Part shown: one piece after another, positions 34,744 to 54,484 of the stretch
Numbering within the stretch: the first letter of the stretch is position 1
Layout: the number at the start of each line of letters is the position of its first letter
Source: Halomonas sp. 54_146
GTDB lineage: Bacteria > Pseudomonadota > Gammaproteobacteria > Pseudomonadales > Halomonadaceae
Reading direction: 5' to 3'
NCBI RefSeq assembly: GCF_001507855.1
Contig: NZ_LGEN01000012.1
Location: 1 to 64,000 of the forward strand
DNA length: 64,000 bases
Notes under the pieces: generated by a model
What the model saw: only the letters and a program-made list of their open reading frames with translations
Told to the model about the DNA's origin: nothing
Databases searched by the model: none
Program-made: the position numbers and the translations under genes

Positions 34744-35216
34744 GAGGCACGCTCCGCAGCACGTTCATGGGCTTCGGCCTGCGCCGCCGCGTCATCCATC
34801 CGCATTGGGTCGGGGTGCAGTTCCTCCACCACATCGCGCACCAGGCTGCGCCCGCGCAGCAGGTGGCGGCCCAACTGTTCAACGAACTGCTCGAAACGGG
34901 CCTTGCCCTGCGCGCGGGCCGCGTCCTGATGCGCTTCGGGCACCGGCGTGCTGACCGTCAGGAAGTAGCGCACGAACAGCGCCAGCGTTTCGATCTGGAT
35001 GTTCTGGTCGCGCTCCAGTCGATCGGCCTGCCGCGACAGGCGATCCAGCCGCTTGGCGATGGCCGCCTCGCGCTGGTCGCCCGCGTCCGGCGACAGCCAG
35101 GACGCCAGCGCCGCCGCGACGATGGACGACTTGGACACGCCTTTCTTGGCGGCCAGTTCTTCCAGCCGCTTGGCGTGCTCGTGCTGGATGAACAGATTGA
35201 GGCGGTATTGGCTCAT
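34740..35216 (-). CDS. CopG-family regulator of the tra/trb operon
   Basis: MSQYRLNLFIQHEHAKRLEELAAKKGVSKSSIVAAALASWL; overlaps trbB and traG. Confidence 0.85.
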   Translation of the reverse strand: MSQYRLNLFIQHEHAKRLEELAAKKGVSKSSIVAAALASWLSPDAGDQREAAIAKRLDRLSRQADRLERDQNIQIETLALFVRYFLTVSTPVPEAHQDAARAQGKARFEQFVEQLGRHLLRGRSLVRDVVEELHPDPMRMDDAAAQAEAHERAAERAS

Positions 35217-37213
35217 AGGTCGATTCCGTCGTTGGGGTCGAGGGAAGCCAGCCGGGCCGTGCGCTGCATGGCCGGGTCGAGCTGGCCGGGAAGCGGTAGC
35301 GGCAGGTCGTCGTCGTCATCGAGCAGCCCCAGGTCATTGCCTGCGGACAGCGGTTCGGGGCTGTATTCGGTAACTTCGGATAGCTCCGGCTGGCGGCGCG
35401 GGCCGCCGTCATCGGTGCCGCCCAGGTCGTCGGCGGATGCTGTGGCCGGCGCGGCGGGTACGGCCGGGATCGCCAGCCCGCTCCAGTCGTCGGGCCGCGA
35501 TGGCGGCACGTCGGCGTACTGCCCGGTCGCCAGCGCGGGCGGCGGCAGCACACGGCGCTTGAAATTGGCGTCGGTGTAGTAGCGCAGCTTCTTCGCCTTG
35601 ATCGGCGCGACGCTGGACACCATCACCACGGACTCATCCGGCGGAAGCTGCATCACTTCGCCGGGCGTCAGCAGTGGCCGCGCCGTTTCCTGGCGCGACA
35701 CCATCAGGTGCCCGAGCCAGGGCGCGAGCCGATGGCCGGCGTAGTTGCGCTGCGCGCGAAGTTCGGTGGCCGTGCCCAGCGTCTCGGAGATGCGCTTGGC
35801 GGTGCGTTCGTCGTTGGTGGCGAACGTCACCCGCACATGGCAGTTGTCCAGAATCGAATGGTTCTGGCCGTAGGCTTTGTCGATCTGATTGAGGGACTGC
35901 GCGATCAGGAAGCTGCGGATGCCGTAGCCCGCCATGAAGGCCAACGCCGTCTCGAAGAAATCCAGGCGCCCCAGCGCCGGGAACTCGTCGAGCATCAGCA
36001 GCAGCTTGTGGCGACGCTCGATGCCGTCGGAGCCATCGAGCGATTCCGTGAGCCGTCGTCCGATCTGGTTGAGGATCAGCCGGATCAGCGGCTTGGTGCG
36101 GCTGATGTCCGAAGGCGGCACCACCAGATACAGCGAGACTGGATGTTCTGCGGCGATCAGATCAGCGATGCGCCAGTCGCAGCGTGACGTGACTTCCGCC
36201 ACCGTGGGGTCGCGGTACAGGCCCAGGAACGACATGGCGGTGGAGAGCACACCCGAGCGCTCGTTGTCTGCCTTGTTGAGCACTTCACGCGCGGCGGATG
36301 CCACCACCGGATGCGGCGCATTGCCTAGGTGCCGCGTCGTCATCATCCGATGCAGGGTCAGCTCGAACGGGCACGCCGGGTCGGACAGGAAATTGGCGAC
36401 GCCGCGCAGCGTCTTGTCCTCGCCGGCGTAGAGCACATGCAGGATGGCGCCGACCAGCAGCGCATGGCTGGTCTTCTCCCAGTGATTGCGACGTTCCAGC
36501 GCGCCTTCGGGATCGACCAGAATGTCCGCGATGTTCTGCACGTCGCGCACTTCATGCGCGCCGCGCCGCACTTCCAGAAGCGGGTTGTAGCCAGCCGACT
36601 GCGCGTCGGTCGGGTTGAACAGCAGGCAGTGGCTGAACCGTGAGCGCCAGCCGGCGGTGATCTGCCAGTTTTCGCCCTTGATGTCGTGGATGACAGCCGA
36701 TGCGGGCCAGCTCAACAAGGTGGGCACCACCAGGCCGACACCCTTGCCCGAGCGCGTGGGCGCGAAGGCCAGGACGTGCTCCGGGCCTTCGTGGCGCAGG
36801 TACTGCCGCTCATGCTGGCCGAGAAAGACACCGACGGGCTGGGTCAGTCCGGCCTTGTGGATGTCACTGGCATCGGCCCAGCGGGCCGAACCGTAAGTCG
36901 TGACCCTGCGCGCCTGGCGTGAGCGCCAGATGGACATGCCGATGGCGACCACCACGGCGATGAGTCCGCTGCCGCCCGCGATGGCGCCGCCGATGTCGAA
37001 GACCTCCGGCGCATAGGCGCCGAAGAAGAACCACCACTCGAACAGTTTCCAGGGGTGATAGACCGGCGTGCCAAAGAAGTCGAACCAGGGCGAGCCAAGG
37101 CGTAGCTGATAGCCCAGGGCGGCGGCTGTCCATTGTGTGGCGCTCCACACACCGGCGATCACGATGCCGAATACGACGGCGATCTGCCCGAACAGCACGT
37201 TCGTCCCTTGCAT
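35213..37213 (-). CDS. traG: Type IV coupling protein TraG (VirD4-like)
   Basis: LAFAPTRSGKGVGLVVPTLLSW Walker A; LLLMLDEFPALGRLDFFE. Confidence 0.95.
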   Translation of the reverse strand: MQGTNVLFGQIAVVFGIVIAGVWSATQWTAAALGYQLRLGSPWFDFFGTPVYHPWKLFEWWFFFGAYAPEVFDIGGAIAGGSGLIAVVVAIGMSIWRSRQARRVTTYGSARWADASDIHKAGLTQPVGVFLGQHERQYLRHEGPEHVLAFAPTRSGKGVGLVVPTLLSWPASAVIHDIKGENWQITAGWRSRFSHCLLFNPTDAQSAGYNPLLEVRRGAHEVRDVQNIADILVDPEGALERRNHWEKTSHALLVGAILHVLYAGEDKTLRGVANFLSDPACPFELTLHRMMTTRHLGNAPHPVVASAAREVLNKADNERSGVLSTAMSFLGLYRDPTVAEVTSRCDWRIADLIAAEHPVSLYLVVPPSDISRTKPLIRLILNQIGRRLTESLDGSDGIERRHKLLLMLDEFPALGRLDFFETALAFMAGYGIRSFLIAQSLNQIDKAYGQNHSILDNCHVRVTFATNDERTAKRISETLGTATELRAQRNYAGHRLAPWLGHLMVSRQETARPLLTPGEVMQLPPDESVVMVSSVAPIKAKKLRYYTDANFKRRVLPPPALATGQYADVPPSRPDDWSGLAIPAVPAAPATASADDLGGTDDGGPRRQPELSEVTEYSPEPLSAGNDLGLLDDDDDLPLPLPGQLDPAMQRTARLASLDPNDGIDL

Positions 37214-38801: not shown

Positions 38802-39251
38802 TTAAGGCTTTCGAGAAGCCAGGAGCTTGCGAAGCGCGCCCAGCATGCCAACGCCAAGAGTCAAGCTGCTGCCAAGATTCTCGATGCGGTGGCCGGCTGC
38901 GGTGGCCAGTTGCACGATGCCTTGCGTATCGGCCGTGACTGTTTCAAGCGCGGCGGCCTCCATTTCGGCAAGTGCCTCCAGTTCAGGGGAATGTGGCTCA
39001 TGCAAGGTGTAACCCAGCAAAATGAGCGCCGCCACCAAGTAAAGGGTAGCGATTGCCAGTGTTGCCCCGAGATCACCGAGAGGAGCTTTGATGGCCAGGA
39101 ACAGCGCATAAGTCGCCAGCCCGGAGGTGGCGATGAACGCCGCGATAGCCAGTGCGGCGGTGATACTGCGCCGAATGAGCTGTCGAAGCAGGACTTGGCG
39201 GCGCAGCAATGCTATGCGGCCGTAGAGTTTTGCAGAGTTGAGAGTCGACAT
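38802..39251 (-). CDS. Small membrane protein, phage holin superfamily III / YqjE-like
   Basis: Two TM segments in a 149-aa protein with flanking amphipathic helices. Confidence 0.6.
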   Translation of the reverse strand: MSTLNSAKLYGRIALLRRQVLLRQLIRRSITAALAIAAFIATSGLATYALFLAIKAPLGDLGATLAIATLYLVAALILLGYTLHEPHSPELEALAEMEAAALETVTADTQGIVQLATAAGHRIENLGSSLTLGVGMLGALRKLLASRKP

Positions 39252-39281
39252 AGGAGACCTTTCAAGGAAAGCACAAATCGG

Positions 39282-39563
39282 TTATCGAGCCTGGTAACCG
39301 ATGACGACGCCCGCAGCCAGGCCGATGCCAAGCGCGGCCAGCGCCGTCAAGCGCGGGTGCCTATTCAGATCGTCCGCAAACTCGTCAAGGGTTTCGTTTA
39401 CAGCTTTCAAGAAAGCGTCGGCATCGTGTAATTGAGAACGTGCTTCGCTGACGCAGCTCACTTCTTCGGTGGGGGGCGGGGCTTCATCTTGCGGCTTCGT
39501 CCGTTGGCGAGCTTGCTCGGCGATCTCTACGCCAAGGGCTTTGATTTCACTTGTCAGATTCAT
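39282..39563 (-). CDS. DUF883/ElaB-YqjD-like membrane-anchored protein
   Basis: Helical N-terminus and C-terminal LTALAALGIGLAAGVVIGYQAR anchor. Confidence 0.7.
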   Translation of the reverse strand: MNLTSEIKALGVEIAEQARQRTKPQDEAPPPTEEVSCVSEARSQLHDADAFLKAVNETLDEFADDLNRHPRLTALAALGIGLAAGVVIGYQAR

Positions 39564-39672: not shown

Positions 39673-40380
39673 TTACTTTTTGGCCTCGTCGATGGACTGG
39701 CGGATAGACGCATAGGTTTCGGAGAAAAGCCGCTGGGCTTCCCCATAGCTCTTTTTCGTGGTCTCCCATACCTCGGACGAGGCTTTCGAGACCCGGGCCT
39801 TGGTCTCCTCCACATCTGCATTCAGTGCAGCAATACGCCCTTCAATGGCTGCGCGCTGATCCGCCGCGAGCTTGGCCGCGTCGGCACGCAATCCAGCAAG
39901 CGCTTTCTGCTGCGCATTCAGTTCCGCCTCCAGTACGGCACGCTGCGTAGCGATGCTGGCCTTGCTTTCCTCAAGATATTTGTCTCGGGTGGCCTGGAAG
40001 GTGGCCCAATCGTTGTCAAGTGCCTGACGTGCTTCGGCGATCTGGGCATCGCTCCAGTTCTTTGCGTTGGCTGCGGCATCTTGAGCCCGGTGGCGATAGG
40101 TATCCCGCTGCTTGCGCAGGTCCGCCAACGCCGCATCGGCCTTGGTGCGCGCCTCGCCCCGGAGCCTGCTGGCGTCTTTTTCCAGGGCAGTAATGTTGGC
40201 ATCAAGCTGGGCCAGCCGATCCTGCGACCACGCCAGTGCTTGGTGAACCCTTGAGGGCTCCTTCTGTGCGGCGGCTGAATCGGCCTGTGCTTCTGCATTC
40301 TGTGCCAAGGCGGGAGGAGCTGACAGCAACGCTGTCTGAGCAAGCAGCGCCAAGGCGATTGTGGAAAAGCGAAGTTTCAT
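39673..40380 (-). CDS. Secreted coiled-coil protein
   Basis: Signal peptide MKLRFSTIALALLAQTALLSAPPALAQ then Ala/Lys/Glu/Gln-rich helix. Confidence 0.65.
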   Translation of the reverse strand: MKLRFSTIALALLAQTALLSAPPALAQNAEAQADSAAAQKEPSRVHQALAWSQDRLAQLDANITALEKDASRLRGEARTKADAALADLRKQRDTYRHRAQDAAANAKNWSDAQIAEARQALDNDWATFQATRDKYLEESKASIATQRAVLEAELNAQQKALAGLRADAAKLAADQRAAIEGRIAALNADVEETKARVSKASSEVWETTKKSYGEAQRLFSETYASIRQSIDEAKK

Positions 40381-40428: not shown

Positions 40429-41037
40429 TCAAAGAACCTTGGAAAAGGCATCCTTGATCTTCTGGACCGTGACGTCGTGAGCTGCCTTGGCATTGGTGAA
40501 CCCCTGCTTGACGGCACGCCAGGATTCATCGCCGGCGTCCTTGACCTCACCGATACGTGCCTGAAATTTCTCGGCCTCAGTGGAAAGGTGATCGAACGCG
40601 GCATCGAGTTCGCCGCGGGCTTTCTCGACGGCATCGGCCGCCTGGTCACGCAACTCCTTCAGGGAGTTTTGCCACGCTTCCCGCTGTGCGTGCGCACGGA
40701 CGACGACGATGCTGCGCGTGGTTTTCACCTGATCGCCGGTCGTGGCGACAAACTGCTGAAGGGCGGACTCGACCTCGACCCATTCGGCTTCGAGCTTGTC
40801 CTGAATTTCGCCCGCTTCCTGCTTCGCGGTGTCCGCTTGGGCGCGCAGATCATCGTAGTACTGCTGCAGCTTCGCGCGGGATGCCGCGAGGCGTGCGCGG
40901 GCTGCGTCGGCTTGCTTGCGGGCATCCTCCTTGATATCGGCGGCCGATTTTTCGACCTCGGAGAGAATGGCATCGGTCTCATCGAGACGCTGCTTCGCCC
41001 ATGCGATGGTTTGGTGTGCGTAGGATTGGAGAGTCAT
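40429..41037 (-). CDS. Cytoplasmic coiled-coil protein
   Basis: No signal peptide; continuous Ala/Lys/Glu-rich helix. Confidence 0.62.
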   Translation of the reverse strand: MTLQSYAHQTIAWAKQRLDETDAILSEVEKSAADIKEDARKQADAARARLAASRAKLQQYYDDLRAQADTAKQEAGEIQDKLEAEWVEVESALQQFVATTGDQVKTTRSIVVVRAHAQREAWQNSLKELRDQAADAVEKARGELDAAFDHLSTEAEKFQARIGEVKDAGDESWRAVKQGFTNAKAAHDVTVQKIKDAFSKVL

Positions 41038-41073: not shown

Positions 41074-41775
41074 TCAAGTGGGGCCTGTTTTTCGGTTCGC
41101 GCTGTCATCAGCCGGCCGAACAGCAAGAAAGCCGCTTCGGCAGAGATCGCGGACCATGTCCGTGATCTGCCTGACGGCTTCGTTCTGAATGCTTTGCCAG
41201 TCCATGCCACGGAGCATCACGCCGCGCAGAAACCTGAAACTGAAAATTGCCGTCAGAATTGCGATGACGCGCAGCCGCAGTGCCTCGTCATCGGAAGATC
41301 TGCCGCTAAACTGGCTGGCGGCATGTACTAGACGCTTCTGCAGCGGAGCGATCGCGCGTTCATGAATCAGGGCGAAGGCGTCGTCGTTGTCGTAAGCGCA
41401 GCGGGCCACGAATGCCGTCCAGGCATGCGGCTCGGCCTCGTCCAGCATGGTGTGGAGCACTTGGATCAGTGCGCGTTCGAAGCGAACGGAAAGCTCGATG
41501 TCCGGCGTATCGTCGAGCAAGGCTGCGGCTTCCGCGAAGCGATTGGCCGCATATTCGGCGATCATCTCCGCTGCGGCCAGATAGAGTTCCTTCTTGCTGC
41601 CGAAATGGTAGGGAATGGCCGACAGCGTGGTTTTAGCCGCTTGGGACAAGGCACGTGTGGTTGCCCCCTCGTAGCCAACGGCAGCGACAACGTCAATCGT
41701 CGCTTCGATCAACTGCGATCGGGTCTTGGCACTGCGGGCCTCGTGGCCGCTGGTTGTTTCGGCATGATTTGGCAT
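41074..41775 (-). CDS. TetR-family regulator (CecR/YbiH-like C-terminal domain)
   Basis: RSQLIEATIDVVAAVGYEGATTRALSQAAKTTLSAIPYHFGSKKELYLAA HTH; start with GGAGG RBS. Confidence 0.87.
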   Translation of the reverse strand: MPNHAETTSGHEARSAKTRSQLIEATIDVVAAVGYEGATTRALSQAAKTTLSAIPYHFGSKKELYLAAAEMIAEYAANRFAEAAALLDDTPDIELSVRFERALIQVLHTMLDEAEPHAWTAFVARCAYDNDDAFALIHERAIAPLQKRLVHAASQFSGRSSDDEALRLRVIAILTAIFSFRFLRGVMLRGMDWQSIQNEAVRQITDMVRDLCRSGFLAVRPADDSANRKTGPT

Positions 41776-41804
41776 ACATCCTCCGACTGTTCCGATGAAA
41801 ATAT

Positions 41805-41817
41805 AGTTCATACGAAC
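41805..41817. promoter_or_regulatory. TetR operator candidate A
   Basis: ATATAGTTC-ATAC-GAAC, inverted GTTC/GAAC, about 30 bp upstream of the TetR ATG. Confidence 0.55.
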
Positions 41818-41824
41818 GATCTTT

Positions 41825-44560
41825 TCAATGGTAATGGAATTGCGAAAAATCGGGTGCCTCATGGTCAGTGGCAACGGTCATAGGGGTCTCAAGCCGATGA
41901 GGGACGTCGCCTGGCTGATCCGAAGCTCCTTTGAGGGCTTCGCCGCCTGGACCCAGACCTACCAGGCTGACAGCCTCCTGGAAGCCCTGAATGGGCTCCT
42001 CCAGGCCGCCAAGCGTCAAGCGCGTAGTCGGATCGGCTTCGAGAAGATGCGCGCCGTGCTTTTGCGCATCGCCGTTGGGTTCGACTTCGCCCGGATTAAT
42101 CCGCATGCCGCTGACCCCCTTCGCCCCCCTGCTGCGAGGGTGCAACTGCACACTGGTGCGAGCGAGCGCCGCCATCCTGTGCCACCAGGCGGGCAGGAGC
42201 GCCCACGAAGTACCGGCGGGTACAAATTCACGCCCCTGCGCCGACTCGAACGCCCGAAGCCGCGCAAGGTATGACCGCACGCGGCGCGGCTCCAAACGCT
42301 GCAGGTCAATCCGCCCGTAGTCCTCAACGAGCCGGGTGAACAGCGCGCGCAGGCGATCGGTGCGGGGATGCAAGTCATCTTCGACGTGCTCGGTGGCGAG
42401 TCGGGCGAGCTGGAGCCCGCGGCCGACGAGACGGTGGAACTCCTGTGCGGCGGGGAAGCTGCCCAGGCGTTCGATCCGCTTGAGCGGCAGTTTCACGTAT
42501 ACCGCGAGCAGACGCCGCAAATCGGCGCGGATGGCCTGCGCCAGCGCCAAATGAGGACGGCTGGTCAAGGAGGAGTGCGCAGATTCCGAAGCTGGCCAGC
42601 ATGCCCGCAGGTTCTCCACGTAGAGCCGCCGGTCGCCGAAGTAACCGGTGACCTGCCGGGTCGCTGCCTGCTCAAGCGCATCCCGCGGTGCATCGCTCAG
42701 GACGCGCGCCATCGAGCGCAATGGCTGCCCGACCGACAGCGGAAAACGGGAGAAGCGGTAGCTTGCCTGCGTTCCAGGCAGCAATCGGTAGGCCACCAGT
42801 TCTTCCCGCAAGGAAGTATCGGCCTCGAAGTGCGCCCGCATCCGCTCGAACAAATCCAGCGGCATGCTCGGCAGACCCGCCCGGTCGTACAAGGAGCGGT
42901 CGTCGTAGCCACCGGCGGCGAGAATTCGCGCAACCACGTCGGCGCAATTGAGATCGCTCCTGCTCCAGCGCAGGCTTGCGTCCCGGAATCCGTTTTCGAT
43001 GCGGTGGGCCTCGGCCACCATCGCCGCACGGCGCTCGGCGGGAATGCCCTGGACCCGCAGCCCGAGCGTCTCACGGCCATAGGCCATGCCGTAGGTGTTG
43101 GTGTGAACTTGCGAACGGGACGGACGATGGATGCCGTACAGGTAGTCCGCCAGGCTCACGTGCTGCAGGAAGTTCGGGTCGACGGACGGGTCCGCGATGT
43201 AGTTCGCGCTGTAGACGGTGTCGCCGATGCGCACGGCAAGATGCCCGAACGGGTTTTCGAGAACGACCCGTTGCGGCGTTTTGGACGTGGCGTAGGACAA
43301 CAGCAGCTCGACCTCTGCCGGTGCTTCGGAATCCAGTTGCGCCAGCGCCTGATCGATGCCCTGGACGGGCGCGCCGTTCTCGACGCCATAGCCGGGCAGC
43401 GGGCGGCCTGGCCGGAAGCCATCGTCCAGCGCAAACCGCACGATGCTCGCGATGTCGATGCCCTGCCGGAACTCCTGCTGGGCTCGCAGCATGGCCTCGC
43501 GCTCGGCAGGGTCGCCCAGCAGTTCCATCACGGATCTGCCCGCATCGTCGGCGCTGGCCGCGAACCGGGCCAGGCCCTGGCGCAGGAACAGCGCGGCGTT
43601 TTCGCGTTCATGGCCGCTGATCACGTCGAGCAGCACGGTCGGCACCCCGAGGGCAAAAGCCTCTGCGGGCGTCATCCCGCCGGCCTTGGTGACCAGGATG
43701 TCGGTGGCTGCCATGCACGACGCCATCTCGCTGCGCGGCAGCAGCCCCAGCGGCTTCAACGTCACCGTGTCCGGCAGCCTTTCGCGCAGATCGGCAAGCG
43801 CCTCGTATTGCCGCGTATTCGTGCCGCACACTGCGATGATCTGCAGGCGGCCCGGGCGGCGGCGAACGATGCTTTCGACGACCCCCAGATAGTCGCCCGC
43901 TCCTTCCTTGCCGCCGGTCAGCAGCAGTGTCGGCACCTCCAACGACAGCCCAAGGCCCTGGAGCGTGGCACGGCGGGCGTCGGCGGATGCCGCGGGAATC
44001 CGCACCGGCATGCCGCTGGTAACGATTTTATCGGCCGGAACGCCTGCGGCCAGCCAGCGCGTTTTCAGTTCCGGGTGGGCAAGAAAGGTACGGTCGATCC
44101 GCTTGGAGATGCGCGGGAAATAGCCCTCGAAGAAATCCGTATGCAGCCAACCGATTCTCGTGTCGGACAGCAGTCCTTTTTCCCGCAAGGTTCCCAGCAC
44201 TTGGGCCGCCCCGTAGTGGGTGGCGAGAACGGCATCCGGCCGCTGCGCGGTCAAGTAGGCCGATACGCTTTCTTCTGGATAATCGTTGGGCAGCATCGAC
44301 AGCGAGGCCACACGGCTGCCGCGCGCCTGCATCGTACGGAACAGACTCTCGAAGCACTCCGGCAGATGGTTGGCGACGAACCAGTACAGGCGCTCGTCAA
44401 CCCGTCGCCACACCGGATGCATGAACGTGCGGATGTCCTGCATCAGCACCCGGGTCGCCGGAGATTGCCGCCGTATCTCGTCCTGAATGGATTGCGCGGC
44501 ACTGATGTGTCCGTATCCGATGGAAGAATAGAAGATGACGACCTTCCCGGTGGTGCTCAT
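41825..44560 (-). CDS. MGDG-synthase-family glycosyltransferase with a permuted papain-like (LRAT/YiiX-type) domain
   Basis: VVIFYSSIGYGHISAAQSIQDEI and LLTGGKEGAGDY GT motifs; GHLAVRIGDTVYSANYI ... LNCADVVARILAAGG His-then-Cys order; 4-nt overlap with the upstream UbiB ORF. Confidence 0.78.
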   Translation of the reverse strand: MSTTGKVVIFYSSIGYGHISAAQSIQDEIRRQSPATRVLMQDIRTFMHPVWRRVDERLYWFVANHLPECFESLFRTMQARGSRVASLSMLPNDYPEESVSAYLTAQRPDAVLATHYGAAQVLGTLREKGLLSDTRIGWLHTDFFEGYFPRISKRIDRTFLAHPELKTRWLAAGVPADKIVTSGMPVRIPAASADARRATLQGLGLSLEVPTLLLTGGKEGAGDYLGVVESIVRRRPGRLQIIAVCGTNTRQYEALADLRERLPDTVTLKPLGLLPRSEMASCMAATDILVTKAGGMTPAEAFALGVPTVLLDVISGHERENAALFLRQGLARFAASADDAGRSVMELLGDPAEREAMLRAQQEFRQGIDIASIVRFALDDGFRPGRPLPGYGVENGAPVQGIDQALAQLDSEAPAEVELLLSYATSKTPQRVVLENPFGHLAVRIGDTVYSANYIADPSVDPNFLQHVSLADYLYGIHRPSRSQVHTNTYGMAYGRETLGLRVQGIPAERRAAMVAEAHRIENGFRDASLRWSRSDLNCADVVARILAAGGYDDRSLYDRAGLPSMPLDLFERMRAHFEADTSLREELVAYRLLPGTQASYRFSRFPLSVGQPLRSMARVLSDAPRDALEQAATRQVTGYFGDRRLYVENLRACWPASESAHSSLTSRPHLALAQAIRADLRRLLAVYVKLPLKRIERLGSFPAAQEFHRLVGRGLQLARLATEHVEDDLHPRTDRLRALFTRLVEDYGRIDLQRLEPRRVRSYLARLRAFESAQGREFVPAGTSWALLPAWWHRMAALARTSVQLHPRSRGAKGVSGMRINPGEVEPNGDAQKHGAHLLEADPTTRLTLGGLEEPIQGFQEAVSLVGLGPGGEALKGASDQPGDVPHRLETPMTVATDHEAPDFSQFHYH
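41897..42112 (+). pseudogene. Remnant resembling an ISL3-type transposase C-terminus, antisense to the glycosyltransferase tail
   Basis: Plus-frame peptide FEGFAAWTQTYQADSLLEALNGLLQAAKRQARSRIGFEKMRAVLLRIAVGFDFARINPHA; no start or upstream catalytic region. Confidence 0.5.
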
Positions 44561-46302
44561 CGTCCTCTCCCGCTGCGCAGAATGGAAAGCAGAAGCCATA
44601 GGCTGCCGACTGTCGCGCCAAGGAATCCGAGAAAGCCAAAGACCGGCAACCCCAGGAGCGTCGGCCCTCCCGACACGGTCATGACGATGGACGAACCGAC
44701 GATGAGCGCGGCGACGACGATCCCGATCACCAGACGGTTGGCGGCATTGTCGAGCTGATCGCCGACCCGTCTCAGATGGGTGACGTCGATGTGTACTTCC
44801 AGGCGACCGCGGCGGGCGGCTCGCAGCAACCGGGAGATGTCCTGGGGCAAGCCAGCCAACAACGAGAAGATGTCACCGGCCGCCCGCCGCCCCCGTCTGA
44901 GCAGCGCTGCCGGGGAGTAGCGCGCGTGCATGGCACGCTCCAGCAGCGGCAGTGCCTGGTTGGCCATGTCGAAACCGGGATCGAGTTCACGGCCCAAGCC
45001 TTCCAGTGTGACGAAGGCTTTGACCAGCAGGGACAGATCGTTGGGCAGGGCGAGGTGATGCTGGCGCGGGATCGCCACGAGGTCGGACAACATTACGCTC
45101 AACCGCAGTTGCTTCAGTGGCACGCCGTGGTAGCGATCTATGAAAGACTGGACTTCCGACAACAGATCCTGCTCATTTGCCACACCGTCGCTCGTCCATT
45201 CGAGCATGACGTCGACGACGCTGCGGGCGTCGTTCCTCACCAGCCCCAGCAGCAGGCGGATCAACTGGTCGCGGCGTTCCTCCTCCAGCCTGCCAACCAT
45301 GCCAAAGTCGATGAAGGCGATTCGATTGCCCGGCAAATAGAACACGTTGCCCGGATGGGGGTCAGCGTGAAACACCCCGTCCTCGACGATCATCTTCAGT
45401 ACGGCATTGGCGCCACGCCGTGCGAGCATCTTGCGGTCCAGGCCAGCCTGATCTACGGCCTGAAGCCTGCGCCCGGAAATACCACCAATGAATTCCTGTA
45501 CGCAGACCCGCTCGCCGGTCCACTGCCAATACACGCGGGGAATGACGATGATGGGATGTGCGCCATCCGCGTCCGGCTTCTCCTCGCCCGGGACGACAGG
45601 AGGAGAGTCCTGATCGGTATAGCCGGTGAAGTTCTCGGCGATGCGTTCGGCATTGCGGCATTCGCCGGCGAAATCGAGTTCATTGCGCAGCGACTGGCCG
45701 AACTGGCGCACCATCTCGCGCGGATGCAGGACGCGCCATTCCGCGCTCTCCGTCTCAGCGAGTTCGGCCAAGCGCGCAAGCCAGCGCAGATCGGCTTCCA
45801 GAATGGGCCGAATGCCGGGCCTGCGCACCTTGACCACGACTTCGCCGCCATCTTCGAGACGCGCCCGATGCACCTGCGCAATGGAAGCGGCCGCCAAGGG
45901 CTCGGGATCGAAGGCCGCGAAGATTTCCTCGGGTGGCGCGCCGAGGTCTTCGGTGAGCTGCTGATGTACGGCTGCCCAGGGAGCGGGCGGTGCGCTGTCC
46001 TGCAACTTCCCGAATTCGGCGGTCCACTCGGGTTCGAGTAGATCGACCCGGGTAGCGAGCACCTGGCCGAGTTTGACGAAAGTCGGCCCCATTTCCTCCA
46101 GCGCCCGCCGCACTCGTTCAGGGGGCGTCATGTGGGCGAAGTCTGTCGCTTCGTTCCAGTGCAGTGCCGTCCCCGCCCGCTCCAAGACGTTGGACAGCCC
46201 CATCCGGCGCACCATGTCGCCAAACCCGTAGCGGACTAGGATCGAGGCGATTTCGTGCAAGCGCCGTAGATCACGCATCGCGGTCAGTGCCTGCCAGAAC
46301 AT
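44557..46302 (-). CDS. UbiB/AarF/ABC1-family atypical kinase
   Basis: GPTFVKLGQVLATRVDLLEPEW, AAASIAQVHRARLEDGGEVVVKVRRPGI, FHADPHPGNVFYLPGNRIAFIDFGMVG. Confidence 0.93.
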   Translation of the reverse strand: MFWQALTAMRDLRRLHEIASILVRYGFGDMVRRMGLSNVLERAGTALHWNEATDFAHMTPPERVRRALEEMGPTFVKLGQVLATRVDLLEPEWTAEFGKLQDSAPPAPWAAVHQQLTEDLGAPPEEIFAAFDPEPLAAASIAQVHRARLEDGGEVVVKVRRPGIRPILEADLRWLARLAELAETESAEWRVLHPREMVRQFGQSLRNELDFAGECRNAERIAENFTGYTDQDSPPVVPGEEKPDADGAHPIIVIPRVYWQWTGERVCVQEFIGGISGRRLQAVDQAGLDRKMLARRGANAVLKMIVEDGVFHADPHPGNVFYLPGNRIAFIDFGMVGRLEEERRDQLIRLLLGLVRNDARSVVDVMLEWTSDGVANEQDLLSEVQSFIDRYHGVPLKQLRLSVMLSDLVAIPRQHHLALPNDLSLLVKAFVTLEGLGRELDPGFDMANQALPLLERAMHARYSPAALLRRGRRAAGDIFSLLAGLPQDISRLLRAARRGRLEVHIDVTHLRRVGDQLDNAANRLVIGIVVAALIVGSSIVMTVSGGPTLLGLPVFGFLGFLGATVGSLWLLLSILRSGRGR

Positions 46303-46311
46303 TGCGTTTCC

Positions 46312-47799
46312 TCATCTTTTCGGGGGCTGGTTGATGCCACCGCCCAGCGCCGCGTACAGCCCGATTTGGCTTGACAAGGCCGCCCTGCGTACCTGCACCA
46401 GTTGCTGCTCGACGGCAAGCAGGTCGCGCTCGGCGTCCAGTACCTCCAGGTGCGCCGCCGAGCCAGCATCGAACAGCATCCGCGCCAGTTTCAAACGCTC
46501 GCTCTGCTCGGCGTGGGCCTGGCGCGCCACGACGAGCTGCTCGGTGAGCTTCTGCCTTGCGGCCAGGGCATCGGAAACGTCGCGAAATGCTGCCTGGATC
46601 GCGCGTTCGTATTCGGCAATGGCAATGTCACGCCGCACGACGCTAACGTCGAGATTGGCCTGTCGCATACCGGCATCGAAGATCGGTAGTTCGATCGTCG
46701 GCTGGAACAACCATGCCCGGGTGCCCGACGAAAACAGGTCGCTCAGGCTGGTGCTGACCGAGCCGGCGCCGCCAGTCAGTGCGATGCGTGGGAAGAACGC
46801 GGCGCGCGCCGCACCGATGTTGGCCTGGCGCGCCCGCAGCGCATGCTCGGCGGCCAGGATGTCCGGGCGGTTGACCAAGAGGTCCGATGGCAGCCCGGGC
46901 CTCAGTTCGGGCATGACCAGGGCTTCATCCATCGGGGCTGATGACGGCGGCAATTGGGGTTCGCTGCCGAGCAGTAGCGCCAGGGCATTGCGCTGCTGTT
47001 CGCGCGCAAGCTCCAGTTGCACCTGCAGGGCTTTGCCCTGGCTGAGCAGGGTGCGCACTTGGGTCAGTTCCAGCCGCGAGCCATGGCCCAGCTCCAAGCG
47101 CTTCTGGAAGATTTGCGCCAGCTCTTGCTGGTTTTCAACCGTGCGCCTTGCCAGCGAAATGCGCTCGTCGAGTTCGCGCAGGCCCAGGTAGGCATCAGCG
47201 ACCTGGGCGACCAGCGCCAATTCCACGGCGCGCTGGCCCTGCTCGGTGGCCAGCCATTGCTCCAATGCGGCGGTCTTCATGCTGCGTACGCGGCCCCACA
47301 GGTCCAGCTCCCAACTGCTGATGCCCACGGAGGCTACGTTGACCTCCAGGACCGAGCGGCCCGCCAGCGGCTGTAGCCCATCGGGCAGGCCGGCGCGGAT
47401 TTGCTGCGCCCCCACGCCGACCATTGGCGCCTGCTGCGCACGCTGGATGCGAAAGGCGGCACGCGCTTCCTCGGTGCGCAGCACCGCCACGCGCAGATCG
47501 CGGTTGTTTTCCAGCGCGGTCTCGATCAGCGCCTGCAAGGCCGGGTCGGTGAAGTACTCGCGCCACGCCAGGTCAGCCGCGGCCGCAACGCCCGGCGTGT
47601 CGGGCTGCGTCCGCCAGTTCGATGCGACGGGGAGCGCTATGGGATCGAGCGCGGGTGCCAGTGAGGCGCAACCGCTCAGCATCGCCAGCACCGCCACCGC
47701 CAGCGTGCCGACGAGCCGATGGCGGGCCGATGGGCCGGTCTCATGGCCTGGGCGGGCCTGGCGACTGCGAGGGGATGTACCGCGGTCATTCTCATGCAT
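46312..47799 (-). CDS. RND efflux outer-membrane factor, NodT family
   Basis: Lipobox VLAMLSGCASL, TolC-like repeats, PDILAAEHALRARQANIGAARAAFFPRIALTGG. Confidence 0.92.
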   Translation of the reverse strand: MHENDRGTSPRSRQARPGHETGPSARHRLVGTLAVAVLAMLSGCASLAPALDPIALPVASNWRTQPDTPGVAAAADLAWREYFTDPALQALIETALENNRDLRVAVLRTEEARAAFRIQRAQQAPMVGVGAQQIRAGLPDGLQPLAGRSVLEVNVASVGISSWELDLWGRVRSMKTAALEQWLATEQGQRAVELALVAQVADAYLGLRELDERISLARRTVENQQELAQIFQKRLELGHGSRLELTQVRTLLSQGKALQVQLELAREQQRNALALLLGSEPQLPPSSAPMDEALVMPELRPGLPSDLLVNRPDILAAEHALRARQANIGAARAAFFPRIALTGGAGSVSTSLSDLFSSGTRAWLFQPTIELPIFDAGMRQANLDVSVVRRDIAIAEYERAIQAAFRDVSDALAARQKLTEQLVVARQAHAEQSERLKLARMLFDAGSAAHLEVLDAERDLLAVEQQLVQVRRAALSSQIGLYAALGGGINQPPKR

Positions 47800-50700
47800 G
47801 GTCTGCTCCTGTGGCCGCCGGGGTTGCATGGCGCTTCGCATGCAGCTCGTAGAGCAGCGGTACGACGAACACGGTCAGCGCAGTCGAGACCAGCGTGCCG
47901 AAGATCAGCGAGACGGCTAAGCCCCCGAAGACCGGGTCGGTCACCATGACGGCCGAGCCGAAGATGATCGTCAGCATCGTCAGCAGGATCGGCCGCAGAC
48001 GCACCGCGCCGGCCTCGCGTACGGCATCCTCCAGCGGCATGCCGTGCCTGATGTTGTCCTGGATGAAGTCGATGATCAGCAGCGAGTTGCGGATCACCAC
48101 GCCCGCCAGGGCGATGATGCCGACCATGGATGTCGCGGAGAAATCCACGCCGACCAGCCAGTGCCCCGGAAAAATGCCGATGATGCCCAGCGGCACGGCT
48201 GACATGGCCACCAGCGGAATGATGAACGAGCGGTAATAAGCGACCAGCGCGAAATAAATGATGAGCAGCGCGCCGCTGAGCGAGATCGTGAGATCCCGGT
48301 ATACGTCCAGCGTCATGCGCATCTCGCCGCCCCACAGCAACTGGTAGCCGTCGATGGTGTCGGGCACGTCCTCCTTGAAGCGCAGGTTGCCGGTGCGCAG
48401 CGGACGTCCGTCCGGCGCGGTGATGCCGTGCAAGCGCCGCTGCAGGTCGAGCACGGCGTACAGCGGCACCGAGTCCGACAGTTCCGCGCCGACGAAGGTG
48501 ACCTTCTCGTTGTCGCGGTGCAGGATGGGGCGATCGACCGATGCGGGGACCACTTTGACCAACTCCACCAGCGGCACGGGCTGGCCGGCGGCGTTGTCCA
48601 CGAATACCCGGTCGAGCCGGGCGGGATCGACCTCGAAGCGGCGCGGCACGAAGGCCCTGACTGGCACCGGCAGTTTCTCGTCCGGCAGGTGGGCGCGGCC
48701 GAGGATGGTGCCGCCGTAGACCAGCGCCAGCGCCTCGGCAATCTGCGCAGTCGAGACGCCGGAGAGCGCGGCCTTGTCCTTGTCCGGCACGATGCGGTGC
48801 TCCGGCACGTCTTCCGGCTCGGTATCGGTGATATCGACGATGTCGTAGGTCTGTGCGAAGGCCCCGCGTACCTGGGCCGACAGTGCGCGCAGACCCTCGG
48901 CGTCCGGGCCATAGATTTCCGCCAAAACAGTCGAGCGCAGCGGCGGACCCGGCGGCTGCTCGACCAGCGCCACCTCGGCACCGGGCCAGGCAGCGCGAAT
49001 GGTCTCCACTTTGGGACGCAATTCGCGCACGATGTCGATGGAGCTTTCCTTGCGGTGACGCTTGTCGATGAGGTTGACGCGGATTTCCGCGATGTGGCTG
49101 CCGGCACGCGCGGCCGTGCCCTTGAACAGGCCGTTGAAGTCGGCCACACCTGCCTGGCCGACCCAAGTCTGGTAGTTGAGCACCTGCGATTCCTGCGCCA
49201 GCACTGCGGTGACCTGGCGCACCAGGCGATCGGTGTCTTCCACCGGCGTGGTTTCCGGCATCGAAACCACCACGTTGAAGGTGTTCTGGTCGTCCTTGGG
49301 CAGAAAGCCGATCGGCACGCCCAGCGCGGACACGGCCCCGCCCACGCCCGCCGGACGGACGAACTGCCAGGCGCCTTGCATCAGCGAGACCGTCATCAGC
49401 AGCAGCACCGCCAGAGCGAAGCCGATGCGCACGTTTCTGTATTGCTGTAAGGGGCTGAACAGGCGCAGGTAGAGGCGCTCGATCCGCCCCGGTGCGCCAT
49501 GACCATGGGACTGTTGCCCGTGCGCTGATTCTTCCTGCCGGATGTCGTGGCGATGAAGCCAGCGATTGGATGCCCACGGTACGACGATGTAGGCCACCAC
49601 GATGGAGGCGGCCATGGCAACTGGCACGGTGACCGCCACCGGGAAAAAATACTGGCGCGGCATGCCGGTCAAGGCCAGCAGCAAGGTAATGAAAACCAGC
49701 ATCACCGCGAAGGTGGCCAGGTTGGTGGCGTTGCCGATCTCGTTGGTCGCCAGCACGGTTTCCGCTTCCTTGTCTGCCTTCGGTTTGCGGCTGGCGTAGT
49801 GGCGGTGGATGTTCTCGATGACCACGATGGCGGCATCCACCAGCAGTCCTAGCGCCAGGATCAGGGCGAAAAGCGTGACGCGGTTGATAGTGACGCCGCC
49901 CAGCAGGTTGGCCGTCAGCGTGATACCCATGATCAACGGCACCGTGATCATCACGATCAACGCCTCGCGCCAGCCCAGGAAGAGGATCAGCACCAGGCCC
50001 ACGGTGACCAGGGCGATCGTCAGGTGTTCCAGCAGCAGGTTGACCGCGTCGTCGGCCTTCTGGCCGTCGTTGCGCGTCACCACGACCTGGATGTCCTGGG
50101 GCACGAAGGTGGCCTGCATGCGCTGCATGCGGTCGATCACTGCATTGGCGACCACCACGGCATTGGTGCCCTTCTTTTTGGCCACGGCGATGGTGACGGC
50201 GGGCAGGTCTGTGGCATCGGCCGTGCCAAAGCGTGGATCACCGAGACCGAAGGAGAGGCGGCTGGCCGTGGTTGGCTCCGACGGCGGGCCGTCGGTAACG
50301 GTGGCCACGTCGCGCACGTAAACCGGCCGCTTGTCGCGCACGGCGATGAGCTGGTTACGCACATCCTCGGCCGAGGTGTAGGCCGCATCCAGCTTGATGG
50401 CTTGTACCTGGCCGTCACGTACGGTGGGCGGCAGTGGCAACGTCAGGTTGCTGATTGGGAAGGCCGCTCGGGCTTGGCCCAGGGTCACGCCGTAAGCCTG
50501 TAGGCGATCGGGGTCCAGTTCGATGGTGATTTCGCGGTGCTGCCCGCCGCGCAGCGACACCACCGAGACGTTCTCGGTACTGCGCAGGCGCTCGGCCATG
50601 CGTTCGGCCATGCGGTTGAGCGCGTAGTCATCGTATTTCGACGAAGCCAGCGTGAAGGTGACGATCGGCACGTCGTCCGCGTCGACGCTTTGCACCAATG

Positions 50701-51100
50701 GCGTCGTGGCATCGGCAGGCAGCCAGGCGCGGCTGGCCATCACGCGGTCATAGAGCTTGACCAGTGACTGCTCCTTGGATTCGCCGACCTTGAATTGCAC
50801 CTGAACGATTCCCTGTGAGTTGCGGGAAGTGCTCTCGATGTGATCGACGCCGGGCAGTTCGCTCAGGATGCCTTCGAGGGGCGTGACCACCAGCGATTCG
50901 ACCTCACTGGCAGAGGCGCCCGGCAAGCCGACCATAACGGCGGCGGCGGGCACGATGATCTGCGGGTTCTCCTCGCGCGGGGTCTGCAGCACCGCCACGA
51001 CACCCATCAACGCCACGGCGATGATGAAGACCAGCGTGAGCTTGGAGGTGATGAAGTGCTTCGCGAGAAAACCCGCGAAGTTCAGGCGCCGCGACGTCAT
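47792..51100 (-). CDS. RND efflux permease
   Basis: 1102-aa ORF; LILALGLLVDAAIVVIENIHRHY, GIIALAGVVIRNSLLIIDFI. Confidence 0.94.
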   Translation of the reverse strand: MTSRRLNFAGFLAKHFITSKLTLVFIIAVALMGVVAVLQTPREENPQIIVPAAAVMVGLPGASASEVESLVVTPLEGILSELPGVDHIESTSRNSQGIVQVQFKVGESKEQSLVKLYDRVMASRAWLPADATTPLVQSVDADDVPIVTFTLASSKYDDYALNRMAERMAERLRSTENVSVVSLRGGQHREITIELDPDRLQAYGVTLGQARAAFPISNLTLPLPPTVRDGQVQAIKLDAAYTSAEDVRNQLIAVRDKRPVYVRDVATVTDGPPSEPTTASRLSFGLGDPRFGTADATDLPAVTIAVAKKKGTNAVVVANAVIDRMQRMQATFVPQDIQVVVTRNDGQKADDAVNLLLEHLTIALVTVGLVLILFLGWREALIVMITVPLIMGITLTANLLGGVTINRVTLFALILALGLLVDAAIVVIENIHRHYASRKPKADKEAETVLATNEIGNATNLATFAVMLVFITLLLALTGMPRQYFFPVAVTVPVAMAASIVVAYIVVPWASNRWLHRHDIRQEESAHGQQSHGHGAPGRIERLYLRLFSPLQQYRNVRIGFALAVLLLMTVSLMQGAWQFVRPAGVGGAVSALGVPIGFLPKDDQNTFNVVVSMPETTPVEDTDRLVRQVTAVLAQESQVLNYQTWVGQAGVADFNGLFKGTAARAGSHIAEIRVNLIDKRHRKESSIDIVRELRPKVETIRAAWPGAEVALVEQPPGPPLRSTVLAEIYGPDAEGLRALSAQVRGAFAQTYDIVDITDTEPEDVPEHRIVPDKDKAALSGVSTAQIAEALALVYGGTILGRAHLPDEKLPVPVRAFVPRRFEVDPARLDRVFVDNAAGQPVPLVELVKVVPASVDRPILHRDNEKVTFVGAELSDSVPLYAVLDLQRRLHGITAPDGRPLRTGNLRFKEDVPDTIDGYQLLWGGEMRMTLDVYRDLTISLSGALLIIYFALVAYYRSFIIPLVAMSAVPLGIIGIFPGHWLVGVDFSATSMVGIIALAGVVIRNSLLIIDFIQDNIRHGMPLEDAVREAGAVRLRPILLTMLTIIFGSAVMVTDPVFGGLAVSLIFGTLVSTALTVFVVPLLYELHAKRHATPAATGADHA

Positions 51101-52257
51101 CGCGCGCCCCCGACGGCCTGGATCGGCATGCCGTCATGGACGGTGTCGGCGACGCTGGCGAGGATGGTTTCTCCGTCCGACAGGCCCGCGGTCACCTCCA
51201 CCACATCGCCCAGGCGCTGGCCTGTGCGCAGCCAGCGAAAACGCGCCACACCTTCCTGCAGCACGAACACGCCGTCCAAACCGCCGCGCCGCACGAGGGC
51301 CGTACGCGGCACCGTGACGGCCCGCTTCTCGTCCAGCAGGATTTCGAGACGGCCGAACATTCCCGGCAGCAGGCGCGCGTCCCGCGGCAGCACGATGTCC
51401 ACCTCGTAGCGGCGGGTCACGCCATCGCCCGATGGCACCACGCCCCGGACCCGTCCCTTGAAGCGCTCATCGCCCAGCGCGTCGATGCGCACGGGAATCA
51501 AGTCACCGGACTTGATTGCCGCCAGGCTGCGCTCAGGTACGAACGCCTTGAACAGCAAGACCTCACGCGACTCCACCGTCATCAGCGGCGCGCCGGGAGT
51601 GGCCATCTCACCGCTGCGCCGGGCCACCGAGACGACCACGCCATCCACCGGACTGGTGATGGCCACGTAGTTGCGCTGCGCTTGTGCCGCCGCCAGCGCC
51701 GATTGCGCTTGCTCCAGCGTCGCGCGGGTGGTTTCCTCCCGCACCCTGGACTTGCGCAGCGCGTCGGCCGAGATCGCGCCAGCCGGCACCAGTTGCGCAT
51801 TCTGGTTCACGTCGTACTGCGCATCCCGCCAAGCCTCCTGGGCGGCCTGCACGCCGGCGCGTGCCTGCGCGATAGCCGCGTCGATGTCAGAGGCGTCGAT
51901 GCGCAACAGCAGGTCGCCGCGCCTGACCGCCTGGCCCTCGCGAACATCGAGCTGGCGAATGAATCCGGTCACGCGCGAAGCTACGTCGATGCGTCCGTCA
52001 GAGACGACGCTGCCAGTCACATCGTTGGTAACAGGTAATCGTGCCTGCCGTACCACAGCGACTTCTGCAGCCACCGGCGTGGCCACGGATCTAGACGAGA
52101 TTGAGCCATCAGTGCAGGCAGCGAGCAGAAGTACACACATGGACAGCACGGCCACCGTGCACGCCTGCACGCTCCTGCCCGTGCTCAAAGTGCCAGTCTC
52201 CCGGACCGACGGCACGGGTCTATGGAGGTCGAGCGCATAGGTAGTCAAGCGATTCAT
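51097..52257 (-). CDS. RND efflux periplasmic adaptor
   Basis: RVTGFIRQLDVREGQAVRRGDLLLRIDASD; 4-nt overlap with the permease. Confidence 0.93.
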   Translation of the reverse strand: MNRLTTYALDLHRPVPSVRETGTLSTGRSVQACTVAVLSMCVLLLAACTDGSISSRSVATPVAAEVAVVRQARLPVTNDVTGSVVSDGRIDVASRVTGFIRQLDVREGQAVRRGDLLLRIDASDIDAAIAQARAGVQAAQEAWRDAQYDVNQNAQLVPAGAISADALRKSRVREETTRATLEQAQSALAAAQAQRNYVAITSPVDGVVVSVARRSGEMATPGAPLMTVESREVLLFKAFVPERSLAAIKSGDLIPVRIDALGDERFKGRVRGVVPSGDGVTRRYEVDIVLPRDARLLPGMFGRLEILLDEKRAVTVPRTALVRRGGLDGVFVLQEGVARFRWLRTGQRLGDVVEVTAGLSDGETILASVADTVHDGMPIQAVGGAR

Positions 52258-52296
52258 GAGTGTCTCGAAGGTCTTGGTTATGTCAGATTCTAATAG

Positions 52297-52314
52297 AGTT
52301 CGTACGATCGAACT
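52297..52314. promoter_or_regulatory. TetR operator candidate B
   Basis: Perfect arms AGTTCG-TACGAT-CGAACT, about 40 bp upstream of the adaptor start; minus strand reads ATATAGTTC as in candidate A. Confidence 0.62.
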
Positions 52315-52442
52315 ATATTTTATCGAATAATTTGGTCAAGTGCGGAACGAGCGGATGACCTCCGTGCTCGCTCGATGTTTTCTTGATCGGAAGGTGTGCA
52401 AGCCCTCCGTATCGTGTTGCTAGCTGCGTTTTGTTTACCGCC

Positions 52443-54422
52443 TCAACTGATAGCAGGCCCGCGTGCGCGCCCAATCTCCCAAGACACCCCGCCACCGCGC
52501 ACTGTGGCCGCGAGCTGCTGACCCAGCCGCTGTTCGATCACTGGCTTCCACGGCACCAAGCTGAACCCCATGCCGTCATCGAGCATCGCGTAGCGCCCGC
52601 TGGCGAGCATGATGCTGCGCCGGTAGATACCGGCCACGCGCTGGCCGTCGGCCACCGGACGGTGCTCCAAGCCGGATTCGGCGGCAATGTCCTTGGCGGC
52701 CTGCGCCAGTTCCCGATTGCGCAACGTGCCCAGCAGGTTCCGGGCGAGGATCACGCGCTGCCCGCGCCGCTCGGCCAGCCCTTGTTCGGTCAGGAAGTCG
52801 GCGCGCTGCTGCATGGCCTGCTTGGCCTCGCCGCCAAAGCCCAGGTCGCCCAGGCCCGAGCCGCCAATCAACTGCTGGTCGAGCCAAGTAGCCCCGATCA
52901 CGCGGGCCTGCCGCTCGATGGGCAGGTGCGATTTCAGTTCCACGGCCACGCCGCCCAGGCGCTGCGCGTCGTAGCGGCGGCCCTGCTCGGGCAGGTCGCC
53001 CGGCACCTTCCATAGCCCTTCGGCCACGCGCTCCACGATGCCGGCCCGGCGCAGGGCTTCCAGTCGGCGGACGTGGGCCGCGACGACTTCCTGCGGATCG
53101 CGGCCGGGCACAGCCTGACCCCGCGCCACGGCAAGGTGATGGTCGGTGCGGTACAGGCCACCGCTCGCCAGCGCGGCGATGTTGCGGTCGGCTGCCCGCA
53201 CGTCGGCAGATCCCTTCACCTCCACCACGGCGCCGGCCGGGTAGTTCGCCAACTCGTCGCGGGCGTTGAGCGCGACGTAGTGGGCCTTGCCGTCCACGCC
53301 GTCGATGACCAGATAGCCCCGGTCGCGCAGCTCGTCGGCCAGCCCCTTCGCGGCCACCCGGCCGAGAATGGTTCGGCCATCGTCCCCAGGCTCGAACACC
53401 GCCAGCTCGCGCGGCTCGCCGCGCATGGCCCGCTGCATGGTGCGGATGATGTCGCCACGCTCGCCCAGGGCGCGCAGGGTCTCTTCCGCGTCGGCATAGA
53501 CGGCCCAGGTGCCGGGCTGTATTTCGTCGGCCAGGCCCAGGCGCTGCAAGCGTTGCAGGCGGCCGATTAGCAGCAGGCGCTGGCGTTGCAGCCGCGGTTC
53601 GTTGAAGCGTTCGATCTGCACTCGGCCGTCCTCGCCGACCTCGCGTTGCAGGGTGCGATCCAGGCTCGTCCACCGCTCCTGCTCCACCTCGCGCTGCAAG
53701 GTCTGCTGGATCTCCAGTTCGGTGCGCGGCCCCAGCCATTCGGTCGCCAGTTCGGCGGCGCGATGGCGAAAGCCTTGCGCGATGTAGTCGCCCGAGATGA
53801 TGAGGTCTTTGCCAGTGTCGTCACGCCCGCGCACGATCAGGTGAGTGTGCGGGTTGTCGGTGTTCCAGTGATCTACCGCCGCCCAATCCAGCCGCGTGCC
53901 CAGGTCGGCTTCCATGCGATTCATCAGGTGCCGGGTGTAGGTGCGCAGGTCGTCCAGCTCGGCGCCGTCCTCCGGGGAAACGATGAAGCGGAAATGGTGC
54001 CGGTCGTCGGCGGCCCGCTCCTTGAAGGCGTCGAGGTCGGCTTCGTCGGTTTGCGGCCCGTAGGCTCGGCCCGGCTCGCCATCGCGGCCCGCGCCATCGC
54101 GCTCGATGTAGCGCAGGTGCTTGGCGAGCGATTGCGGGCTGGCATTGCGCTGATTGACCAGCAGCGTCTTGATGGTTACACGCCGCGACAAGGGCGTGAG
54201 CTTCGCGCCCGCGAAGCGCGCCGCCGTATGGCCGCGCCCCAAGCGCGAACCGGGGCGCTGGCCGGCGCGTGCGCCGCTGCCACCGGCTGCGGAATTGCGC
54301 ATAGAGGACTTGCCGCCGCTGGCCTTGCCCGCCTGCTTGAGCACCTTGGAAACGAAGCCCTGGCCCCGGTTCTTCGGGGCACTGGGGCGCACGCGGAAAT
54401 CGTCGTCGCGGCGGTCGCTCAT
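52443..54422 (-). CDS. MOBP-like relaxase (TraI/VirD2-type, DUF3363-like C-terminus)
   Basis: HFRFIVSPEDGAELDDLRTYTRHLMNRME and WAAVDHWNTDNPHTHLIVRGRDD relaxase motifs. Confidence 0.9.
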   Translation of the reverse strand: MSDRRDDDFRVRPSAPKNRGQGFVSKVLKQAGKASGGKSSMRNSAAGGSGARAGQRPGSRLGRGHTAARFAGAKLTPLSRRVTIKTLLVNQRNASPQSLAKHLRYIERDGAGRDGEPGRAYGPQTDEADLDAFKERAADDRHHFRFIVSPEDGAELDDLRTYTRHLMNRMEADLGTRLDWAAVDHWNTDNPHTHLIVRGRDDTGKDLIISGDYIAQGFRHRAAELATEWLGPRTELEIQQTLQREVEQERWTSLDRTLQREVGEDGRVQIERFNEPRLQRQRLLLIGRLQRLQRLGLADEIQPGTWAVYADAEETLRALGERGDIIRTMQRAMRGEPRELAVFEPGDDGRTILGRVAAKGLADELRDRGYLVIDGVDGKAHYVALNARDELANYPAGAVVEVKGSADVRAADRNIAALASGGLYRTDHHLAVARGQAVPGRDPQEVVAAHVRRLEALRRAGIVERVAEGLWKVPGDLPEQGRRYDAQRLGGVAVELKSHLPIERQARVIGATWLDQQLIGGSGLGDLGFGGEAKQAMQQRADFLTEQGLAERRGQRVILARNLLGTLRNRELAQAAKDIAAESGLEHRPVADGQRVAGIYRRSIMLASGRYAMLDDGMGFSLVPWKPVIEQRLGQQLAATVRGGGVSWEIGRARGPAIS

Positions 54423-54484
54423 GGCAGTCTCCAAGGAAAGCTATGGCGTGCCACGGCGTGCGAAGCACGCGGGCCGCCCTGTCT

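Follow-up and report, generated by a model that had tools for sequence, protein, structure and literature searches.

A mobile unit joining an RND efflux pump, a UbiB-type kinase, and a two-domain glycosyltransferase in a Tn4371-type element of Halomonas sp. 54_146

The 64,000-nucleotide stretch analyzed here (hereafter the window; Halomonas sp. 54_146, contig NZ_LGEN01000012.1) carries, within an integrative and conjugative element (ICE) of the Tn4371 type, a compact unit that combines a tripartite RND efflux pump with a UbiB/ABC1-type kinase and a lipid-type glycosyltransferase (GT). Our tentative reading is that this unit represents a mobile module under CecR control, which may couple tolerance of hydrophobic compounds with the upkeep of envelope lipids. 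Because the context that recurs outside the module in related loci is alkane oxidation, tolerance of hydrophobic compounds is the function that we favor. No paper naming the set was found in the searched literature, consistent with the initial annotation of this DNA, which knew of no function described for the set as a whole. The core of the unit is composed of the following features:

51097..52257, minus strand: RND periplasmic adaptor (HlyD/MFP; Pfam HlyD_D23; NCBIfam RND_mfp over cut-off)
47792..51100, minus strand: RND permease, 1102 aa, AcrB/MdtB-like (Pfam ACR_tran, 504 bits)
46312..47799, minus strand: outer-membrane factor, NodT family (NCBIfam outer_NodT over cut-off; Pfam OEP)
44557..46302, minus strand: UbiB/ABC1-type atypical kinase (Pfam ABC1, 245 bits; motifs intact)
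43406..44560, minus strand: GT residues 1-385, MGDG synthase/GT28-like (Pfam MGDG_synth and Glyco_tran_28_C)
42224..43405, minus strand: GT residues 386-779, undescribed C-terminal region with conserved GH...NC motifs (without Pfam match)
41825..42223, minus strand: spurious GT tail, residues ~780-911, a read-through into an antisense remnant of an ISL3 (ISAe1-like) transposase

Along the minus strand, the gene order is adaptor, RND permease, outer-membrane factor, UbiB, and GT. The adaptor and permease genes overlap by 4 nt, the permease and outer-membrane factor genes by 8 nt (taking as start an internal ATG of the latter at 47799; its longest open reading frame begins upstream at 47841), and the UbiB and GT genes by 4 nt (ATGA); a gap of 9 nt separates the outer-membrane factor from UbiB. 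The five genes and the lengths of the four junctions agree with the initial annotation, and its single tightly packed unit is borne out by them. All five gene families were confirmed by Pfam (HlyD_D23/HlyD_3, ACR_tran, OEP, ABC1, and MGDG_synth with Glyco_tran_28_C), and the three components of an AcrB/MdtB-type RND system are thus all present in one unit. Between the window and its relatives, the ratio of nonsynonymous to synonymous substitution rates (dN/dS) was 0.14-0.37 for the permease and 0.14-0.24 for UbiB (full-length comparisons). Within the GT, it was 0.12-0.32 for residues 1-385 and 0.08-0.32 for the strongly constrained residues 386-640 (the first ~255 aa of the C-terminal region), where the close relatives gave 0.08-0.2. 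These low values, which for the close relatives are mostly about 0.1-0.3 across the pump, UbiB, and both genuine domains of the GT, indicate that the genes are under selection and represent functional coding sequences.

The unit extends beyond these five genes: a CecR-type TetR gene follows, then two genes for phasin/apolipoprotein-like proteins, and candidate operators lie at two promoters:

41074..41775, minus strand: CecR-type TetR regulator (Pfam CecR_C, 80 bits, with TetR_N)
40429..41037, minus strand: phasin/apolipoprotein-like amphipathic protein 1 (weak sub-threshold Apolipoprotein/ApoLp-III match)
39673..40380, minus strand: phasin-like protein 2, signal-like N-terminus (25% identity to protein 1)
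52292..52315, minus strand: candidate CecR operator upstream of the adaptor, TAGTTCGATCGTACGAACTCTATT (24-bp box likeness)
41800..41823, minus strand: candidate CecR operator upstream of the CecR-type gene, AAGATCGTTCGTATGAACTATATT (24-bp box likeness)

The best ungapped match between the two 24-bp boxes is 19 of 24 positions; shuffled sequences gave a mean of 14.6 and a maximum of 18, such that none of 300 shuffles reached 19. Tepidicella and genomes G875 and G1031 retain the core palindrome 5' of the adaptor, with changes in the flanking bases. We infer from this likeness that CecR may control the promoters of both the adaptor and its own gene.

The related loci are diverse in gene content. 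Two Polaromonas plasmids have the order TetR-hypothetical-DUF883-DUF6781-UbiB-GT-patatin-polyprenyl synthetase-adaptor-RND-TolC, with the 4-nt UbiB/GT overlap conserved, and Tepidicella has adaptor-RND-outer-membrane factor-UbiB-patatin-prenyl synthase-GT-CecR-phasins. A patatin phospholipase and a polyprenyl-synthase-like protein distinguish these fuller versions from the window, which has neither. Before the Tepidicella GT lies a 53-nt scar of a second UbiB end (L005 9800-10010), identical to the window at 52 of 53 positions; this scar points to recombination inside the cluster and suggests that UbiB-GT contact was the older state in Tepidicella. In Roseibium, a DUF6781-UbiB pair is followed 3.7 kb away, beyond IS66 and on the opposite strand, by an RND gene 76% identical to that of the window, accompanied by a CecR gene and a phasin-like gene; the homolog of phasin/apolipoprotein-like protein 1 adjoins this pump. 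The DUF6781-UbiB-IS66-RND block is present in two copies on one Roseibium plasmid (L072 and L064). Genome G341 (L117) has TetR-adaptor(MFP)-RND-DUF6781-UbiB-patatin. More generally, UbiB relatives of this type often adjoin DUF6781.

The phylogenies of the two central proteins are in conflict. The UbiB of the window branches with that of Polaromonas (97/96), away from those of Roseibium and G341. In the RND tree, the window and Roseibium are sisters (100/100), followed by a Sphingopyxis alkane plasmid (100/100), and Polaromonas and G341 are placed apart from this group. Therefore, this UbiB type and this RND type were joined or rejoined on at least three occasions, and conservation of the cluster by descent alone was rejected. 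The pump/UbiB partnership proposed in the initial annotation recurs with different lineages and is hence likely functional, and these comparisons indicate a linkage that is recurrent among the sequences compared, loose, and not obligatory.

As for the surroundings of the module, AraC-AlkB-AlkJ-acyl-CoA ligase genes adjoin it in Tepidicella and pPNAP01; the AlkB there is fused to a ferredoxin/reductase half, and the AlkJ-like protein is a GMC oxidoreductase. The Sphingopyxis plasmid carries an RND gene 60% identical to that of the window beside an alkane monooxygenase cluster; of the pumps without UbiB, this one is the nearest. Pseudomonas putida gained growth on octane from a 62-kb ICE that encodes a similar AlkB fusion of 754 aa (PMC12903215). 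Host AlkB-type genes were considered as a reason for the module and rejected, as none was found. Since both the window element and its host lack such genes, the module must be useful without them.

Several observations weigh against a CecR-controlled tolerance module or favor another explanation, namely, an ordinary stand-alone RND pump for which UbiB and GT are hitchhikers shuffled in by insertion sequences (IS) and serving an unrelated envelope role. UbiB is present in only one of 29 neighborhoods of chromosomal pump relatives (some cut by contig ends), and this pump is present in none of 20 UbiB neighborhoods drawn from genomes. In G875 and G1031, which keep the pump, GT, CecR, and phasins and have no relaxase beside this copy, residues ~76-394 and 423-508 of UbiB are deleted with the frame open, leaving 187 aa (L088 16809-17372; L090 17530-18090), and the downstream GT stays open. 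The CecR-type gene and both phasin-like genes also occur at 91% identity on a Pseudomonas aeruginosa conjugative plasmid (L148 9001-11269) without pump, UbiB, or GT, i.e., as a separable unit. Furthermore, the Roseibium pump and UbiB lie on opposite strands with an IS between them, an IS remnant lies inside the unit of the window, and the operator search found no copy of the box in the Polaromonas, Roseibium, and G341 loci. Lastly, neither the genome of the window nor the Sulfuricella metagenome-assembled genome (MAG) nor two others carry a full AlkB fusion, and FA_desaturase/AlkB-type proteins are missing altogether from the host, in which AlkB-type alkane oxidation is therefore not the partner of the module. 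Against the stand-alone pump, the linkage to UbiB arose repeatedly from different pump and UbiB lineages, and purifying selection acts on UbiB and GT, which show translational coupling in several backgrounds. We consider this explanation possible, though doubtful.

Under the tolerance and lipid-upkeep reading, the tripartite pump would remove oily molecules or oxidized products from the inner-membrane/periplasm side, and a membrane-anchored UbiB-type ATPase/kinase would adjust or mobilize membrane lipids under the same stress. The lipid GT, with its fused domain as a putative Cys/His hydrolase or acyltransferase, would act likewise on membrane lipids. In the fuller versions, the patatin phospholipase and a catalytically degenerate prenyl-synthase-like protein could join this lipid adjustment, and the phasin-like proteins may coat hydrophobic surfaces. 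In yeast, UbiB proteins affect how a hydrophobic lipid is distributed (PMC8346625).

The initial annotation had instead proposed one envelope-remodeling or lipid-export pathway. In the lipid-export form, a glycolipid made by the GT would be regulated or moved by UbiB and reach the outer membrane through the RND pump. A lipid-type GT and a lipid-associated kinase do share a unit with a tripartite pump, and relatives carry patatin and prenyl-synthase-like partners. However, the permease is AcrB/MdtB-like (ACR_tran) and falls outside the dedicated lipid-exporter families, relatives of the pump are mostly found alone, without GT as well as without UbiB, and two genomes hold the pump and GT with UbiB gutted. 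Moreover, no GT was found in the pump-UbiB clusters of Roseibium and G341 (the G341 contig stops just past patatin), and alkane oxidation is the closest functional context that recurs. We therefore regard this pathway as improbable.

The window UbiB has all signature motifs intact (KxGQ, A-rich loop, HADPHPGN for HxDPHxGN, and DFG) and a hydrophobic C-terminus. It is not a canonical UbiB, because its scores are below both NCBIfam UbiB equivalog cut-offs (447 of 487.55 bits and 341 of 667 bits). This bears on a further alternative, in which UbiB and its partners support the supply of quinone or another isoprenoid during hydrocarbon or membrane stress, with the pump only co-regulated. Membership in the UbiB family and the polyprenyl-synthase-like gene of the relatives are consistent with such a role, as are two further ABC1 genes in the host genome for housekeeping. 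Apart from the sub-cut-off scores, the prenyl-synthase-like proteins, with Pfam matches at or barely over threshold, lack the DDxxD motif, and the cluster contains no other ubi gene, such that isoprenoid supply appears improbable.

The GT requires correction at its 3' end. The MGDG-synthase-like assignment in the initial annotation agrees with Pfam for the N-terminus, which scores below the cut-off of the NCBIfam model for diglucosyl-diacylglycerol synthase; the reported 3' end does not stand. Polaromonas GT homologs, which have an N-terminal hydrophobic stretch absent from the window GT, align to window residues 6-779 only. Residues past 779 match ISL3-family transposase genes on the strand opposite to the transposase, and the DNA at 41889-42120 has 70% identity to ISL3/ISAe1 elements. 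With dN/dS of 0.52-0.59, this tail (~130 codons) is under weaker constraint than the two real domains. The full-length GT was thus rejected as one native protein: the real end lies near 42224, the 3' end of the open reading frame is meaningless, and both the stop codon and the length of "924 aa" arose, judging from these alignments, by the accident of an old insertion. The window shares this ISL3 insertion at the GT end with Tepidicella, with the MAG of Sulfuricella, and with two more genomes.

Residues 386-779 constitute a protein domain not previously described, with no family match in Pfam. Its only known relatives lie in these mobile clusters, apart from a secreted protein of Cupriavidus that is distantly related (26% identity; L143 5929-7083 and L144 5929-7083), keeps GH...VYSAN...NCA, and is itself unannotated and without Pfam match; outside the host, no homolog of the domain was found in 369 genomes of the class. 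The arrangement of its His and Cys residues, with H440 and C539 of the 911-aa frame predicted to be catalytic, hints at a thiol hydrolase or an acyltransferase. In an hhalign comparison of residues 386-640 with Lnb_N (formerly DUF4105), considered as a permuted papain candidate, the NC segment alone was aligned, at a non-significant probability of 0.3%, and the AlphaFold model of the domain was unusable (pLDDT 37).

The borders of the cargo are defined by two ICE backbone genes:

52443..54434, minus strand: Tn4371-type ICE relaxase (DUF3363), upstream cargo border (Pfam DUF3363, 497 bits)
35213..37213, minus strand: TraG coupling protein, downstream border of the cargo slot (Pfam T4SS-DNA_transf, 343 bits)

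The backbone also holds S26 peptidase, ParA, and Trb genes. Together, these genes confirm the earlier description of the unit as ICE cargo, which occupies the known variable slot between relaxase and TraG. The integrase would lie outside the window; integration ends were sought via TTTTTCAT, which occurred no more often than expected by chance. Downstream of the phasin-like genes, two small genes at 38802-39563 resemble DUF883/YqjD- and YqjE-type membrane proteins (no significant Pfam match) and, with a LysR regulator at 37751-38665, occupy the space of the Tepidicella alk genes. At the edge of the backbone (60579-63553), two open reading frames lie in a stretch of ~47% G + C, much below the 63-71% alongside, which is likely a separate insertion.

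UbiB-family proteins are widespread, but for most of them no client beyond quinone biosynthesis is known. A mobile unit that repeatedly joins UbiB to a pump and lipid enzymes offers a small transferable system for finding a UbiB target. If the module does raise hydrocarbon tolerance, this would account for its presence on ICEs through which alkane degradation spreads, and bioremediation as well as solvent-tolerant production strains could profit from it. A more far-reaching and unlikely possibility is a mobile prokaryotic system for hydrophobic cargo, in which the UbiB-type ATPase and lipid-remodeling enzymes (including the new GT-thiol-enzyme fusion) would pass lipophilic molecules to the RND pump, with phasin-like proteins as a coat, as a functional analog of plastid plastoglobules coupled to efflux.

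Compared with known systems, the window shares the adaptor, ACR_tran permease, and NodT/OEP outer-membrane factor with AcrB/MdtB-type multidrug pumps, but its permease falls below all NCBIfam permease cut-offs (with no solved-structure relative at E <= 1e-60 by sequence) and is linked to UbiB and lipid enzymes. The kinase resembles UbiB/COQ8/ABC1 proteins in all signature motifs and in a solved-structure match to COQ8A, but differs from canonical UbiB by the NCBIfam cut-offs noted above. The N-terminal GT domain is similar to the GT28 enzymes MGDG synthase and UgtP diglucosyl-diacylglycerol synthase, which differ in lacking a fused GH...NC domain. The alk ICE of P. putida EM2-4 (PMC12903215) is comparable in its AlkB fusion: its 754-aa AlkB-reductase-like protein is like those of Tepidicella (753 aa) and pPNAP01, whereas the window has no alk genes. 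A further close counterpart is ICETn43716065 on pPNAP01, an example of the Tn4371-family ICEs whose relaxase-TraG variable region takes cargo (PMC2789088). It has the same backbone order, the same slot, orthologous UbiB-GT genes, and an RND pump. In contrast, the window lacks the patatin, prenyl-synthase-like, DUF6781, and alk genes, and its pump, regulator, and outer-membrane factor (NodT-like, with 24% identity over part to the Polaromonas protein, which is of a different type) come from other lineages.

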